A stretch of DNA of 64,000 nucleotides from Haloterrigena alkaliphila (GTDB taxonomy: Archaea; Halobacteriota; Halobacteria; Halobacteriales; Natrialbaceae). The translations under genes and the position numbers were made by a program. Within the stretch, counting starts at the first letter, position 1; every line of letters begins with the position of its first letter. The stretch spans positions 682,001 to 746,000 of the forward strand of contig NZ_CP071462.1 of NCBI RefSeq assembly GCF_017352155.2, written 5' to 3'. Of this stretch, positions 8,412-47,071 are shown one piece after another. A model generated the notes under the pieces. That model did not search any database, was not told the origin of the DNA, and worked only from the letters and a program-made list of their open reading frames with translations.

Positions 8412-8831
8412 TCACTCCGAATCGAGCCGACCGCCTTCGGCAACGGCCGCGTCGCGAACCGCCGACCGGTCCGGCGCGGCGAGCAGGTGCCCCGAGCAAT
8501 CACAGTCCGAGGCCCCGAAGCCGTCCACCGGGTCGCCGGGCAGCGACGCCGCCAGTTCGCACTCCCGATCGGCGTCGGGGAACGTGATCGCGGCCTCGAG
8601 AGTCGTCTCAGGGTGTCCGAGCACGTAGTCGATATGCCAGTGGCGGGTGTCGCGCTCGCCGCGGGCGAGCTCGCGGTGCCGGTCGACGCGGGAGAAACCG
8701 CCGGGACCGAAGGCGCTCCCGACGTAGGCGTAGGTTCCCGCGTCGAACTCGCGCTCGCCCAGCGCACCGACCTCGAGCGTCGTCGCTCGCCGGAGGTCGA
8801 CGACGAGGACGTAGGTACCGCTCTGACTCAT
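8412..8831 (-). CDS. DUF123 (GIY-YIG-like) family protein
   Basis: A 139-residue protein starting at the ATG at 8831. It opens GTYVLVVDLRRATTLEVGAL and contains GTYAYVGSAFGPGG followed by RVDRHR and TRHWHIDYVL. This matches the DUF123 family, a GIY-YIG-related fold (Tyr-Val-Gly in place of the second motif). The family occurs in archaea alone or fused to endonuclease III. The cysteine-containing tail (DCDCSGHLL) may bind metal. Nuclease activity is not shown for the family. Confidence 0.85.
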   Translation of the reverse strand: MSQSGTYVLVVDLRRATTLEVGALGEREFDAGTYAYVGSAFGPGGFSRVDRHRELARGERDTRHWHIDYVLGHPETTLEAAITFPDADRECELAASLPGDPVDGFGASDCDCSGHLLAAPDRSAVRDAAVAEGGRLDSE

Positions 8832-8918: not shown

Positions 8919-11198
8919 TCAGCGGTCCCGGGGACGGCCGCCGCCGCGCTCCTCGTCGTCGGCTGTCGGATCGTTCTCGTGGACGTGCCGGCGGTTACTC
9001 ATGTCACCGTCGTCCTGCTGGGTCTGCTGGCGCTCCTCGCCGCCGCCGGGGAGCCCCTGACTGGACGGGCCAACGCGGTCCGTCGTGGTGGGCTGGTCGC
9101 GCTGGCGGTTCCGGTCGCGGGTCCGGCCCGGCGAGCCGCGGGAGTCCGCGCGCCGGGACTCGCGATCGTTGGGGCTCTCGTACTCGCGGCCGAAATCCGG
9201 GTCCTCGGTCCAGTGGCCGCTCTCGGCGCGCTGCCCGTGCTGCTGGTGCTCGAGGTCGCCGCCGGACCGGTTCTCTGATCGGTGCTGATCGGGCGTGGAG
9301 CCGGTTTCGCCCTGGCCACCTCCCCCGCCCTGGCCACTGCCACCGCTCTGCTGTGCGCGCTCGCCGGCCTGAGGGCGCCCCTGCTGGTCCTCGTACTGCT
9401 GGCCCCGCTGGCCCTGACTCTGCTGGCCGAATTCCGCCCCGCTCTCGCGGGACTCTTGGCGACGTTCCTGGCCGCGCTGGAAGCCCCGCTGGCTGCCGCC
9501 CTGCGGGGAGTAGTCCTGACCCTGACCGCCATGACGGGGCAAGTCCCGCTGCTGGTCGCTGTAGCCGCGGCTCCGTCGATCCTGCTGGCCCTGTTGGTCC
9601 TGCATCTCCGTCGTGCGGCGGGGCGTTCGGTCGTTGATCCGGCGGTCGGACCCGGTCCGTTGGCCGCGTTGCTGTCCCTGCTGGCCTCGCTGTTGGTTCT
9701 GCTGGGGTTGCGATCGATCTCCCTGTTGTCGTCGTTGGCGCTGCTGCCCCCGCTGTCCCTGCTGGCCGCGTTGCTGGTACTGCTCGTGACCCTGCTGCTC
9801 GCCGCCGCGCCAACCGCGCTGATCGTCGCGGAACTGTGTTCCCTCGGCGCCTCGAGCGTGACGGGACTCGCCGCCGTACTCGAGGTTCGCCTGGTCGGTC
9901 ACGTCGGGTTCGAACTGGCTGGCGGGGCTCTGCTGTCGTTCGCGACGGGACTGCTCCTTACCGCCGTGGCGTTGGTACTCCCCCGCTCGTTCGCGGCCCT
10001 GGCCCTGCTGGCCGCGCTGGTCGTACTCCTGCGGGTCTCGCTGTGGCGGCTGCTGGCCCCGCTGACCGCGCTGCTGGCCGCCCGTTTGCCGGCGATCCTG
10101 TTGCCCGCCCATCTGCTGGCGGCCCTGCTGACCACCTTGTTGGGGACCGCCGCGATAGCCCTGCTGACCGCCCATCTGCTGCTGATTCTGTCGACCGCTC
10201 ATCTGCTGGCGACCCCGCTGACCGCCCTGCTGTCGCTCGTGGCGGGCTTCACCACCGTACTCGAGATTCGATTCCCGAATCGCGTCGGTCTCGAAGCCGC
10301 TTTGCTGGCCGGACTGCTGGCCGCCGCCGCGTCGACGCTGCTGCCCGTCGCGGTTCGTGCGTTGCGGGGTGGACTGTCGACCGCCCATCTGTTGGCGATT
10401 TTGTTGCCCGCCCATCTGCTGGCGGCCCTGCTGCCGACGCTGCTGATTACCCCGCTGACTCCCCATCTGCTGGCGGTCCTGCTGACCGCCCATCTCGTGA
10501 CGACCGTGCTGCTCGCCCACCTGCTGGCGCTGACTACGCTGATCCTGCTGTTCCTGGTAGCCGCCCTGTGGCTGGTACTGTTCGCGCTCGTGTCTGGCTT
10601 CGCCGCCGAACTGGAGGTTGGATTCTCGAATCGCGTCGGTTTCGAAGTCGCTCTGTCGATCGCGCTGCTGGCGCCCGCCGCGCTGTCCCTGTTGACCGCC
10701 GCGATTCGTCGGTTGCCTGCCGCCCTGCTGGCCACTCAGTTGCTGACGGTCCTGTCGACCCTGACCGCCCGTCTCGTGACGACCGCGCTGTCCGCCCATC
10801 TGTTGGCGGTTTTGTTGCCCGCCCATCTGTTGGTGGTTTTGCTGGCCACCCGTCTGCTGGCGGTCAGGTCGACCGCGATCGGTTCCGCCGCGTCCGGTCG
10901 CCTCGCGTCGATCCTGCTGGCCGTCACCACCCGCGGAACTGCGACCCCAGTCGGGTTCGCCGGCGGTGCCGCGGATCTCCGCTTCAGCGCTGTGCCACTC
11001 CTCGGATCCGCCTCGAGACCGGCTGTTCGCCGTCCCTTCGCCGCTTCCGCCGCGGCTGTACAGGCCGTGGAGCCAGCCGCGGTCGTCCTCGCGGTCGCCT
11101 CGTCCCGCCGTCTCCCGGTGCTGATCGCCTCGCTCGGCGTCACTCGAGCGGTCGGTACGCCGATCTCGCGGTCGGTCGCGGTCGTGTCGGTCGTTCAT
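8919..11198 (-). CDS. basic Gln/Arg/Gly-rich intrinsically disordered repeat protein
   Basis: About 759 residues from the ATG at 11198 (MNDRHDRDRPRDRR). I do not recognise the family. Nearly the whole length is low complexity with repeated units such as RQQMGGQQN, GQQGQRGQQ and QRGQQ, rich in Gln, Gly and Arg and poor in hydrophobic residues. Three copies of a distinct motif interrupt it: ETDAIRESNLQFGGEARHER (DNA about 10593-10653), ETDAIRESNLEYGGEARHER (about 10240-10305) and a variant with ANLEYGGESRHAR (about 9856-9923). A strong TATA-like element lies at 11322-11329, 26 nt from an in-frame GTG at 11300, so a 793-residue leaderless version is possible. The composition is unlike neighbouring acidic proteins. 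A disordered or condensate-forming role is only inference. The last 30 or so residues become acidic. Confidence 0.6.
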   Translation of the reverse strand: MNDRHDRDRPRDRRTDRSSDAERGDQHRETAGRGDREDDRGWLHGLYSRGGSGEGTANSRSRGGSEEWHSAEAEIRGTAGEPDWGRSSAGGDGQQDRREATGRGGTDRGRPDRQQTGGQQNHQQMGGQQNRQQMGGQRGRHETGGQGRQDRQQLSGQQGGRQPTNRGGQQGQRGGRQQRDRQSDFETDAIRESNLQFGGEARHEREQYQPQGGYQEQQDQRSQRQQVGEQHGRHEMGGQQDRQQMGSQRGNQQRRQQGRQQMGGQQNRQQMGGRQSTPQRTNRDGQQRRRGGGQQSGQQSGFETDAIRESNLEYGGEARHERQQGGQRGRQQMSGRQNQQQMGGQQGYRGGPQQGGQQGRQQMGGQQDRRQTGGQQRGQRGQQPPQRDPQEYDQRGQQGQGRERAGEYQRHGGKEQSRRERQQSPASQFEPDVTDQANLEYGGESRHARGAEGTQFRDDQRGWRGGEQQGHEQYQQRGQQGQRGQQRQRRQQGDRSQPQQNQQRGQQGQQRGQRTGSDRRINDRTPRRTTEMQDQQGQQDRRSRGYSDQQRDLPRHGGQGQDYSPQGGSQRGFQRGQERRQESRESGAEFGQQSQGQRGQQYEDQQGRPQAGERAQQSGGSGQGGGGGQGETGSTPDQHRSENRSGGDLEHQQHGQRAESGHWTEDPDFGREYESPNDRESRRADSRGSPGRTRDRNRQRDQPTTTDRVGPSSQGLPGGGEERQQTQQDDGDMSNRRHVHENDPTADDEERGGGRPRDR

Positions 11199-11321
11199 GG
11201 CTGTTGGAAACTCGGTCGTTCGGTGGTCACTCGCCCCGGTGCGGGCCGTCCGTACCGTACGCCGCCGGTCAGTATCGCGCGGATCCGGCGGCTTCGGCAC
11301 CGGGAGTTCGACTGCCCGAGC

Positions 11322-11329
11322 GGATAAAA
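11322..11329 (-). promoter_or_regulatory. TATA-like element for the Gln/Arg/Gly-rich protein
   Basis: Read on the minus strand the sequence is TTTTATCC. It lies about 26 nt before an in-frame GTG at 11300 and about 125 nt before the ATG at 11198. It supports minus-strand transcription of the repeat gene rather than its opposite-strand ORF. Confidence 0.4.
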
Positions 11330-11382
11330 GGAGAGCGTGAGTTCGCGTGCAGGCGCCGCGAGGAGTGCGCGGTGGCGGTACG

Positions 11383-12384
11383 TTAGCGCCGCTGCTGGGC
11401 GCCGCGCGGCGTCGGCGAGCCGTTGCTTGCTCGACCGGTTGCGCTGTCCACGACGGACGCGAAGAGCCCGCGGGCGGGTTCGTACTCGTAGGTAATCCAC
11501 TGTGGGAGGTAGCGAGCGCCGGTCAGCTTCCGGACGCCGAGCTGTCGAAGCCGGGTCTCGGGCTCGAGGTGGTCGGCCAGCCGCAGATCGACGATGCCGT
11601 CGAAGACGGACTCGTCCATCGTCGCGCCCTCGTCGCCGGCCGGCCACCCCGCCACGATGGGGACGTACCGTGCCTTGCAGACCGTCGCCCGGGTCTCCGC
11701 GACGAACTCGTGGATGTGATCCGTCTCGAGGCCCCGAGCGAGTTCGCCCAGCGAATCGATCGCCACCAGCCCGGTCTCGGTCATCTCGAGGTCGTCGAGC
11801 GCCGCGTTGCATTCCCGCAGAATCGGTTCGATATCGGCCGGGTCCTCGATCGGAACGATGGCGTCGGCCGCGGCCTCGCCGACGAACTCGATCCACTCGC
11901 CGCGACGCTCGCGGAAGGCGTCGCGGTCGGCGAGCCGGTGGGTGAAACAGTCGACGAGGCGGAGCCGATCGTCCTCGAGCGCCGGGAGGACGTTCCAGCC
12001 GTTCTCGAAGAAGCGCTCGAGGACCGCCGTCGGCGGCGTGGTGGCGGTGACGAGCACGGCCGGCTCGCCGCGTTCGATCCCCCGCCAGACGAGTTCGGTC
12101 AGCAGTTCGCTCCGGCGGGTTCCCGCCTCGCCCGAGACGGCGACGAACGAGTCGGCGGGCACGCCGTTAGGGATCAGCGAGTCGATCGGTTCGATGCCGG
12201 TGACGATGCGCTTGTAGGCGTTCGGATCAGGCACGGCGTCATCGTCGCCGTCGGCTTCGAGACAGGCGGTCGAACAGAACTGGCCGTCGTCGGTCTCCTG
12301 GGGGTCGCCGGGAATCGGATAGTGGCAGTGATCGCACTCGAGCGGATAGTCGGCCGATCGCTCGGCCCGCTGTTGCGAAGACAT
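11383..12384 (-). CDS. RecA/KaiC-like (HTR-like) ATPase-fold protein with N-terminal zinc finger
   Basis: A 333-residue protein from the ATG at 12384 (MSSQQRAERS). An in-frame ATG at 12447 would add 21 residues, but the acidic core starts at the later one. Residues 15-45 hold CDHC and FCSTAC, a small treble-clef-like zinc site. The remainder is a RecA-superfamily domain starting IVTGIEPIDSLIPNG. The Walker A position reads GEAGTRRSE: the usual Gly-Lys-Ser/Thr is replaced, so ATP hydrolysis is doubtful. GLVAIDSLGELARGLE fits Walker B. Haloarchaeal relatives are called HTR-like proteins and are linked to signal transduction; the function is unproven. Confidence 0.7.
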   Translation of the reverse strand: MSSQQRAERSADYPLECDHCHYPIPGDPQETDDGQFCSTACLEADGDDDAVPDPNAYKRIVTGIEPIDSLIPNGVPADSFVAVSGEAGTRRSELLTELVWRGIERGEPAVLVTATTPPTAVLERFFENGWNVLPALEDDRLRLVDCFTHRLADRDAFRERRGEWIEFVGEAAADAIVPIEDPADIEPILRECNAALDDLEMTETGLVAIDSLGELARGLETDHIHEFVAETRATVCKARYVPIVAGWPAGDEGATMDESVFDGIVDLRLADHLEPETRLRQLGVRKLTGARYLPQWITYEYEPARGLFASVVDSATGRASNGSPTPRGAQQRR

Positions 12385-44859: not shown

Positions 44860-45061
44860 ACTTGGGCCCGCGCGGTCGCCGTGGGTTCGTCGGCCTCAAC
44901 GCCGACGAGTTCCCCCCGACATCGAGACCCGCGTCCGCTCCCATCACGACCTATCCGACGAGATCGGAGCCCGCAACCCCCACCTGCTGCCGGTACCGAT
45001 CGATCGGTTCGACGAGATCACCGCCGAGATTGCGGACGTGTACTCAATCAAGTTCACCTGA
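44860..45061 (+). pseudogene. possible fragment of a lost protein
   Basis: On the plus strand one frame reads [14 protein letters not shown]; after an apparent frame change, another continues [20 protein letters not shown] then ITAEIADVYSIKFT and stops at 45061. The acidic composition and ending look like a haloarchaeal protein C-terminus, but no start exists and the trpB promoter lies upstream. I do not recognise the protein. It borders the AT-rich island on its left. Confidence 0.3.
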
Positions 45062-45096
45062 CGCAGCACAAACCGAGACCGAAGATCGGCCTAGAA

Positions 45097-45543
45097 TCAT
45101 TCATTATTTCCTGAACAATCACCAGATACCCTGATATCGATGTCCCCTTGGGATTCATCTGTTCCATTGCCAACTATAATTAACACATTCACACAAGCAG
45201 AGTCGATTTCACCAAGATCTTGCTCTTCCCATTCTGACCGATTTTGATTTCCACTCCATGCATATAAAGTATAACTAGATTTTGATTCTGGTATGCCTGA
45301 TGATAATTCTCCACTTGAACTACCTCCTTCCCCAGAAGGTTCAACATTTACCGAATCCCAGTATACAGGGCCATTATCATCAATGAGTAGTACATTAATT
45401 ATGTATGTTCTTTCTCCCCTATTTAAAACAGATACTTCACCTAACCTCGTTTCCGAGGAATCATTTCTGAATAGGCATCCAGTTGAGGGAATCAGTAACG
45501 CAGATCCACATATGTGGAGTGCTTTACGGCGAGTGAAGTTCAT
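45097..45543 (-). CDS. Tat-exported lipoprotein of unknown function
   Basis: A 148-residue protein. The ATG at 45543 is preceded at 5 nt by AGGTGA, a good Shine-Dalgarno, so it is preferred over the GTG nine bases earlier. The signal MNFTRRKALHICGSALLIPS ends at the lipobox Cys23. The mature part predicts a beta-sandwich (RTYIINVLLIDDNGPVYWDS) and has a Ser/Gly-rich loop. The gene is AT-rich, unlike the housekeeping genes around it. No family recognised. Confidence 0.65.
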   Translation of the reverse strand: MNFTRRKALHICGSALLIPSTGCLFRNDSSETRLGEVSVLNRGERTYIINVLLIDDNGPVYWDSVNVEPSGEGGSSSGELSSGIPESKSSYTLYAWSGNQNRSEWEEQDLGEIDSACVNVLIIVGNGTDESQGDIDIRVSGDCSGNNE

Positions 45544-45689
45544 TGGTTTCACCTAAGGGATCTAGACTTAAGTAGGGCTATAATTTTCGGTGACCCACGA
45601 TCAGCTATATTTTCTTACTCTAGAAGCTTGTTTCTTTCTATCGGAAAATATAACCTAGAGTTATTTAATCACGTATATTAACCATTTCA

Positions 45690-46640
45690 TTATATATTTT
45701 CGATTTCGTAAATATCCTCATCGTTTTGGAGTTCGTTTGGAATTCTTTTTTCTCTTTTTTCATCCGCCGATAACTCTTTTCCTTTCTTAAACTCAGACCA
45801 ATTAATACCCCCAATTGATGCAGTAGAATAAGCCCCTGGGCCTGATGTCCCCCACCGACGCATATATGTTGGGTAGACTGTTACTGTCTCATTTGTTTCT
45901 GCAGTATATTCATCATCACAAGCAGAATCGCCAGGAGAATCGCAATTAGCAGCACCGTATTCAGTTACACTATCCAGAACAGAAATGTCGGCGGCACGAT
46001 CTGCTCTCACATAGAAGTCAACCCAATGACTTACTGCCACTTGTTGTCTATCATAGCCCCACCAGTATTCCGCCATATTATTATTCACCTCGGATGTATC
46101 GTCAAATACTGCTGTTTTTACGATATCAGCAGCAACAACACCGGCTGAAGCATATGGATTAATAGCCCCCAGGCTACCTGCTATGACACTCCATGCTACA
46201 TCTCCAGATACATCATGGTGGGGTGCGTTGCTGCTCGGTTCTGGGGCCACAAATATTTCGTCAGAGTCTGTCGCTGGATACAAGGAACCCAATATTACGT
46301 CAATTTCGACCCCATGGCCATTGATCATACCCCAACAATATTCTGAAGCACCCCTCTGAGCGTATGCAGAGACGGCCAAGTGGTACAAATACCTATCTTG
46401 AGAGTCCATCAGACTTTCAATCAGAGTCAGGTTACTAACTATTTCAGTTCGGTTTTCGGAATCTTTTGATGTAATATCATCTTCAACGCTTACCTCATTA
46501 TAATTGCTAGGGTCACCATTATTCGACCAACTAGGTTCACAATGGCTAGCACTGGCAGTTCCAGTAATACCTGTTATTGCGCCCACTGAAGTGGCCGTAG
46601 ATACTAACACTTTTCTCCGATTGGTTTTGTCTCCCATCAT
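45690..46640 (-). CDS. Tat-exported protein of unknown function in an AT-rich island
   Basis: A 316-residue protein from the ATG at 46640; alternatives lie at 46637 and 46658. The TATA-like AGTATTAA at 46669-46676 favours the later starts. The Tat motif is NRRKVLVSTATSVG with a cut after TASAS. The mature protein is acidic and has several Trp and Cys (SHCEPSW, YCWGMINGHG, NCDSPGDSACDDEY), ending in a Lys/Glu-rich tail. Paired Cys suggest disulfides. I do not recognise the family. The codon use and low GC differ from the surroundings, a sign of transfer. Confidence 0.65.
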   Translation of the reverse strand: MMGDKTNRRKVLVSTATSVGAITGITGTASASHCEPSWSNNGDPSNYNEVSVEDDITSKDSENRTEIVSNLTLIESLMDSQDRYLYHLAVSAYAQRGASEYCWGMINGHGVEIDVILGSLYPATDSDEIFVAPEPSSNAPHHDVSGDVAWSVIAGSLGAINPYASAGVVAADIVKTAVFDDTSEVNNNMAEYWWGYDRQQVAVSHWVDFYVRADRAADISVLDSVTEYGAANCDSPGDSACDDEYTAETNETVTVYPTYMRRWGTSGPGAYSTASIGGINWSEFKKGKELSADEKREKRIPNELQNDEDIYEIENI

Positions 46641-47071
46641 CGCAAATAGAATGTTCATTTCGATTTACTTAATACTTTTCCTCACTTTTTCTAGTTGAAA
46701 TTGCTGTCCTCGATATAGAGATAATAGAATTAGTTGCACGAAGATACCGCTCTATCGATTTTACTCAGTGAGTAAGACCCACAAATAATTACATTTATTG
46801 TTGAAATCCATAACAATTCTATATTTTATTTCAAAGCTTAAATAATTAAATTAACTTAGTTATTGAGTATAAGTCATACCTGAGTCATGTGAAATGCGAA
46901 GAGTAGACCAAAGATGGACAAATTGTATGGATGTCGGTCAGGGTATCAAGCAAGAAGGCCGATCGTGTTCACACCGCACGCGATTACTGCCAAGCGTCTA
47001 TTATGGAAGGCGGTAACGGGCAGACCTATTGTGAGCAACCGGACAGTTGTCCTGAATGATTAAGTTCTGGA
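46641..47071. other. AT-rich intergenic region beside nuoCD
   Basis: This stretch of about 430 bp is very AT-rich up to about 46880, then returns to higher GC. It holds only one short ORF (see 46931-47059). I see no tRNA or clear attachment site, so how the island arrived is unknown. Confidence 0.4.
46931..47059 (+). CDS. candidate small Cys-containing protein
   Basis: A 42-codon ORF begins at the ATG at 46931 and ends at 47059. The peptide includes HTARDYCQASIMEGGNGQTY followed by CEQPDSCPE. It has three cysteines and a Gly-Gly-x-Gly-Gln-Thr-Tyr motif. It has no Shine-Dalgarno. A piece of DNA at about 53815-53830 shares the GGGCAGACCTA core. It could be a true small protein, the end of a lost gene or chance. 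Confidence 0.25.
   Translation: MSVRVSSKKADRVHTARDYCQASIMEGGNGQTYCEQPDSCPE

Follow-up and report, generated by a model that had tools for sequence, protein, structure and literature searches.

Haloarchaeal proteins are selected for acidity, and to our knowledge hardly any large low-complexity protein predicted to be disordered has been described in haloarchaea. In the 64-kb stretch of Haloterrigena alkaliphila DNA analyzed here (the window), the minus strand carries a long open reading frame (8919..11300) whose translation is dense in Gln, Arg and Gly. Is this frame a gene, and what kind of protein would it encode? A sequence-only reading had described the product as large, basic and disordered, with a resemblance to RGG/Q-rich condensate proteins and three copies of a conserved insert, exceptional in an acidic proteome and selected as a protein and not only as repetitive DNA.

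The gene and its product

The open reading frame was confirmed and comprises 793 codons from GTG 11300 or 759 codons from ATG 11198. Aligned with this ATG, all relatives show M[NT]D[RP], and several of them have a stop roughly 12 codons upstream of it that cuts off the extension toward the GTG. We therefore place the start at ATG 11198 and not at GTG 11300. The resulting coding sequence (8919..11198, minus strand, TGA stop) is backed by the open frame itself, by orthologues, by dN/dS values below 1 and by in-frame indels.

The 759-residue protein contains 162 Gln (21.3%), 143 Gly (18.8%) and 125 Arg (16.5%), together with 110 Asp and Glu (14.5%), a single Lys and no Cys. It has a pI of 10.5, a net charge of about +17 and a GRAVY of −2.20. 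For comparison we used 376 ORFs obtained by simple ORF calling from a sample of about 464 kb of the host genome. The Gln content of 21% lies above the sample maximum of 12.8%, and the hydrophobic fraction of 10% lies below the minimum of 22%. The net charge per residue of +0.02 is nearly balanced (sample median −0.086) and is matched or exceeded by 33 of the 376 ORFs, most of them short. The description as a large basic protein is thus not borne out, and what sets the protein apart in its acidic proteome is its Gln/Gly/Arg composition, the avoidance of Lys and the scarcity of hydrophobic residues; basicity is the weaker part. The RGG character is modest as well, with 9 RGG against 4.4 expected (z = 2.4) and 31 RG against 23.5 expected, while GQQ, QQ and QRG are more strongly enriched. 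Aromatic residues number 26 of 759, with 10 of them inside the conserved motifs described below and hence most of them outside.

An AlphaFold2 model based on 12 orthologues resulted in a mean pLDDT of 40.6; none of the residues exceeded 70, and the model is devoid of secondary structure. This uniformly low confidence supports the predicted disorder but does not prove it, because the underlying alignment is shallow and of low complexity.

Selection on the reading frame

Fifteen congeneric pairs yielded dN/dS values of 0.19–0.42 in the minus-strand frame. On DNA alignments made blind to frame, pN/pS was 0.23–0.63 in the gene frame and above 1 in the other frames, except for the antisense frame whose third positions coincide with those of the gene (0.31–0.75). 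Gaps came in multiples of three in 45 of 45 cases in four pairs of relatives and in 41 of 45 cases in two pairs involving the window copy; these counts are not independent across pairs, because the pairs share branches. The plus strand also has long frames of 516 and 681 codons. They are a by-product, because CAG, CGC and GGC codons yield no stop in the reverse complement.

Judged by these alignments, the minus-strand ORF is a real protein-coding gene under purifying selection. Loss of the frame in close relatives, which the sequence-only reading had named as grounds for refutation, did not show up: the frame persists, with its M[NT]D[RP] start, in all five other Haloterrigena congeners, and the expectation that selection acts on the protein has held up in the substitution rates, in the in-frame indels and in the mostly synonymous divergence of the insert copies.

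Conserved motifs and drifting linkers

Along the chain, short conserved blocks alternate with variable linkers (all coordinates on the minus strand). The N-terminal motif RGWLHGLYSRGG (residues 40–51; 11046..11081), with the family form RGWLHGL[FY]SRG, occurs in 72% of 36 members and has a pair identity of 0.87 where present. The second motif, here called the F-motif, has the family consensus FETDAxxExNLEYGGEARHE (in a looser form F[ET][TP][DN][AV]xxxxxL[EQ][YF]GGEAR[HR]) and is found in 1–3 copies per member. The window protein has copy 1, FETDAIRESNLQFGGEARH (residues 185–203; 10590..10646), copy 2, FETDAIRESNLEYGGEARH (residues 302–320; 10239..10295), and a variant copy 3, FEPDVTDQANLEYGGESRH (residues 429–447; 9858..9914). 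Of the three conserved inserts originally described, two are thus close copies of the form FETDAIRESNL[EQ][YF]GGEARHE, and the third is a variant. Copies 1 and 2 are 80% identical at the DNA level (13 of 66 bases differ) and only 3 of 22 residues are changed, so their divergence is mostly synonymous.

Three further blocks follow toward the C-terminus. GGSQRGFQRGQ (residues 567–577; 9468..9500), with the family form SQQGFQRGHERR, has a pair identity of 0.81. The block SGGDLEH...GHWTEDPDFGR (residues 645–671; 9186..9266) corresponds to SGGGLEYRQ..RRSEQGDWTE in the family, more generally SGGGLE[YH]..G.WT or SGGGLEY..(G)DWT. The C-terminal motif is DMSNRRHVHE (residues 732–741; 8976..9005). Pair identity is 0.63–0.87 in the motif blocks and 0.51 in the remainder. 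The YGG motif is present in 92% and GG.L[EQ][YH] in 89% of the 36 members; R[RS]H[VIS]H[ED] is present in 35 of 36, a fraction that is somewhat circular, because the presence of motifs helped to collect the members.

The linkers drift and change their length through 27-bp units. Tandem Repeats Finder located such repeats (9 residues, QQMGGQQNR-type) at 10379..10529 and further arrays at 10071–10130, 10159–10227 and 10787–10864. Across the 36 members the net charge per residue stays at +0.033 (sd 0.026), despite Gln contents of 4–26% and Arg contents of 14–27%; the Asp plus Glu content goes up with Arg (rho = 0.70) and down with Gln (rho = −0.94). The members together contain 28 Lys and 3726 Arg, compared to 1942 Lys and 8958 Arg in the genome sample. 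Linker sequence drifts while the charge balance and the choice of Arg over Lys persist. Both patterns are descriptive, with contributions from high GC content and shared ancestry.

Promoter and genomic context

An alignment of 19 upstream regions revealed a conserved element of about 30 bp, GCACGCGAACTCACGCTCnnnTTTTATCCG (11321..11350, minus strand), located about 120 nt upstream of ATG 11198; the stretch between the element and the ATG is not conserved. The element contains the TATA-like sequence TTTTATCC (11322–11329) and reads as an archaeal TATA promoter, which would place the transcription start near 11297 and give a 5' UTR of about 100 nt. No second copy was found in the genome at up to 3 mismatches, and a regulon sharing this element was rejected on that basis.

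The gene order around the locus is constant: epimerase, an optional KaiC-like gene, the disordered-protein gene, DUF123, CMD and glutamate synthase. Throughout the Natrialbaceae locus family, the disordered-protein gene occupies the slot that adjoins DUF123 and reaches up to the KaiC-like or the epimerase gene. In the window, the DUF123 gene (8412..8831, minus strand) forms the constant 3' border. The upstream neighbor (11383..12381, minus strand), syntenic but not obligate, encodes a KaiC-like RecA-superfamily protein that has a CxxC..CxxxC motif at its N-terminus and whose P-loop is degenerate (GEAGTRRS, lacking GK[ST]); this protein is conserved in 60 of 125 host-family genomes. Elsewhere in the window the G+C content falls from about 0.66 to about 0.58 (19001–42000) and to about 0.41 (45001–47000), which suggests acquired DNA in these stretches. 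No tRNA genes were found in the 64 kb.

Distribution, loss and decay

We built family profiles from the C-terminal block and from the F-motif and searched 125 host-family genomes. The gene is present in all five other Haloterrigena congeners found (including H. salina JCM 13891) as well as in Natrinema, Natronorubrum, Natronolimnohabitans and Halopiger. The F-motif profile alone, that is, a search with the conserved insert, matched 46 of the 125 genomes and 13 of 29 genera; synteny added shorter members in two more genera, for a total of about 15 Natrialbaceae genera. The window protein shows the M[NT]D[RP] start, LEYGGEAR, the GG.LE[YH]..WT block and RRHVHE near the C-terminus that characterize the family, whose 36 distinct members range in length from 256 to 759 residues. 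No paralogue of the window gene was found in the host genome. It is a single-copy chromosomal gene, and the R/G/Q protein family is specific to Natrialbaceae.

The gene is cleanly missing at five loci, among them those of Natrinema hispanicum, N. limicola and Natronorubrum sulfidifaciens, and there the KaiC-like gene runs directly into DUF123. Copies at three other loci are decayed. In these and in the copy of Natrinema gelatinilyticum the frame is shifted or interrupted by stops, and remnants of the C-terminus can still be recognized, showing at the level of sequence repeated pseudogenization. Conversely, in four genera the disordered-protein gene stands in the slot with no KaiC-like gene beside it. 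Because of this repeated loss and decay and the separate occurrence, the gene is dispensable and not tied to its KaiC-like neighbor; the phyletic pattern rules out an obligate pairing.

Two members deviate in other ways. One Haloterrigena copy has a premature stop ahead of RRHVHE and ends at 633 residues, with the N-terminal part intact and constrained. In locus L140 (5244–5732, plus strand) the same slot holds an acidic relative of 163 residues and net charge −41, its composition shifted from near-neutral to acidic; it keeps MTDR and SGGGLEHDQ...WTEDQ.

The motif beyond the family

With a 19-column core profile, LxYGGE[AS]RHxQ was also detected at unrelated loci of two other haloarchaeal families, in Gln-rich proteins of low complexity: genomes G228, G334 and G387 belong to one of these families, G410 to the other. 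G334, which was absent from the profile, was matched at E = 9.5e-7. Both there and in G228, the Gln-rich gene lies tail-to-tail with a gene for a MEDS-GAF-BAT-HTH_10 regulator (domain scan for G334). In G410 a second R/Q-rich low-complexity protein of about 305 residues (locus L176, 277–1191, minus strand) is encoded at most 7 kb from the motif-bearing one. A search of 393 genomes spread over the phylum gave no match at E ≤ 0.001 outside the host family. The proteins of the other families share a motif of 10–12 residues and a Q/R/G-rich low-complexity chain with ours; they differ in their loci, in the absence of the remaining family motifs and in Gln contents of up to about 35%; what they demonstrably have in common with ours is the motif and the kind of chain. 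From these sequences, LxYGGEARHE appears to be an element that disordered proteins of haloarchaea reuse, whether by descent or convergence.

Pfam gave no match for the window protein at E ≤ 1 or for 12 orthologues at E ≤ 0.01, and no known domain was found in Pfam, NCBIfam or PDB sequences. There was no plasmid match and no confirmed relative in viral contigs. A use of RRHVHE as a tag in other proteins was also rejected: neither of its two other DNA matches led to such a tag, and the match that could be translated in frame lies inside a thiolase-like protein. Literature searches on disorder and phase separation in haloarchaeal proteins brought up nothing on this R/G/Q family. As low-complexity disordered proteins, its members belong to a familiar broad class; the family itself is undescribed, and unusual for salt-in archaea.

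Proposed role and alternatives

Taking together the Lys-free R/Q/G chain, its almost neutral net charge and its recurring conserved motifs, we tentatively propose, at a little short of an even chance, that the protein is a multivalent, Arg-only disordered scaffold that condenses at molar salt and recruits partners through its motifs. The conserved motifs (RGWLHGLYSRG, FETDAxxExNLEYGGEARHE, SGGGLEY..DWT and RRHVHE) would act as binding or "sticker" elements; repeated motifs in a predicted disordered chain (pLDDT 40.6 from a shallow alignment) provide the multivalency of a condensate scaffold. The Q/R/G linkers would be spacers of variable length, in which the sequence drifts and bulk charge balance and the choice of Arg over Lys are kept. 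In the multimolar-salt cytoplasm the scaffold would self-associate or condense, held together by Arg/Gln contacts and not by screened ionic ones, and the repeated motifs might bring in RNA or a few folded partners, perhaps a single one. A gene that lineages can do without most plausibly serves under particular conditions or under stress.

Precedents exist in vitro. One study describes Arg-rich, as opposed to Lys-rich, chains that condense again at high salt (PMC9705477), and another describes FUS-type proteins that condense at high salt through hydrophobic and non-ionic contacts (PMC7889641). With FUS/RGG-type and Q-rich prion-like condensate proteins of eukaryotes, our protein shares a low-complexity Q/G/R chain, the preference for Arg over Lys, sparse aromatics, predicted disorder and a candidate reentrant condensation at high salt. 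In contrast to them, it shows no homology, has no RNA-recognition domain and few Tyr, is nearly neutral, carries conserved short motifs and belongs to an archaeal salt-in cytoplasm. Several points speak against condensation. So hydrophilic a chain could remain soluble, the RGG enrichment is modest, and the aromatics are few and mostly outside the motifs. The use of Arg instead of Lys could in part reflect high GC content. Absent and decayed copies and the short acidic relative in L140 are unexpected under a strict condensation role.

The main rival to this scaffold is a protectant of the hydrophilin or LEA type. Made in abundance under desiccation, dilution or starvation, the disordered chain would then serve as a filler or shield that counters aggregation and retains water, with no specific condensate or partner. 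Hydrophilins are defined by more than 6% Gly, a GRAVY below −1 and a mean hydrophilicity exceeding 1; Asn/Gln contents are highest in them, while LEA proteins prefer Lys (PMC4190154). With 18.8% Gly and a GRAVY of −2.20 the window protein lies within the first two limits, and it is Gln-rich and predicted to be disordered; linkers that drift while bulk properties stay, and a gene that is lost repeatedly, would also fit such a conditional shield. The third value depends on the scale: mean hydrophilicity is 0.81 on Hopp-Woods and 2.20 as negative Kyte-Doolittle. Like group 1 Em proteins, dehydrins and GsiB-type repeats, the protein is Gly-rich, very hydrophilic and disordered, with short conserved segments between variable linkers. 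Its linkers are longer, however, it uses Arg where LEA proteins favor Lys, and Pfam, LEA models included, gave no match. Profiles of LEA group 1 and KGG stress repeats matched neither the window protein (E ≤ 1) nor the 12 orthologues (E ≤ 0.01). The GGEAR of the family motif is similar to the KGGE[AT] core found in stress repeats, which we take as a lead only. A bulk shield needs no sharply conserved motifs. On balance we regard this role as unlikely.

Alternatively, the protein could bind RNA or other nucleic acids in the manner of RG/RGG proteins, as an RNA chaperone or ribosome-associated factor and not as a scaffold. Basic residues that are nearly all Arg, 31 RG and 9 RGG, and the near-total exclusion of Lys would suit such a binder. 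A net charge near zero, the lack of a detected folded RNA-binding domain, the modest RGG enrichment and the weak ionic attraction expected in molar KCl make it decidedly unlikely.

Very improbable is a two-gene signaling module in which the protein serves as adaptor for the adjacent KaiC-like protein. The two genes are adjacent and codirectional in all five genera named above, and the tail-to-tail arrangement with a MEDS-GAF-BAT-HTH_10 regulator in another family offers a parallel; each gene nevertheless occurs without the other, in four genera and at five loci, respectively, and the disordered-protein gene has its own conserved promoter. That the frame is a DNA-repeat or antisense by-product is hardly credible, since the tandem repeats and long antisense frames that would fit it are outweighed by frame-specific purifying selection and in-frame indels, which rule out such an artifact, and by conserved motifs, promoter and synteny.

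Returning to the proposed scaffold, a wider version is possible but doubtful, namely a haloarchaeal family of lysine-free R/G/Q scaffolds that undergo reentrant condensation at high salt and dock clients through a clade-wide LxYGGEARHE motif. If true, this would be a membraneless-compartment system fitted to a cytoplasm whose salt screens out ordinary electrostatic condensation. For the question of how disordered chains function at multimolar salt, the family offers natural, evolutionarily replicated sequences: what persists over about 15 genera can be read off, both among bulk features (exclusion of Lys, balanced charge) and among motifs, and the natural losses serve as controls. Should these proteins condense, they would provide a cellular case of reentrant behavior at high salt, a regime studied until now in vitro with FUS, PR25 and protamine.
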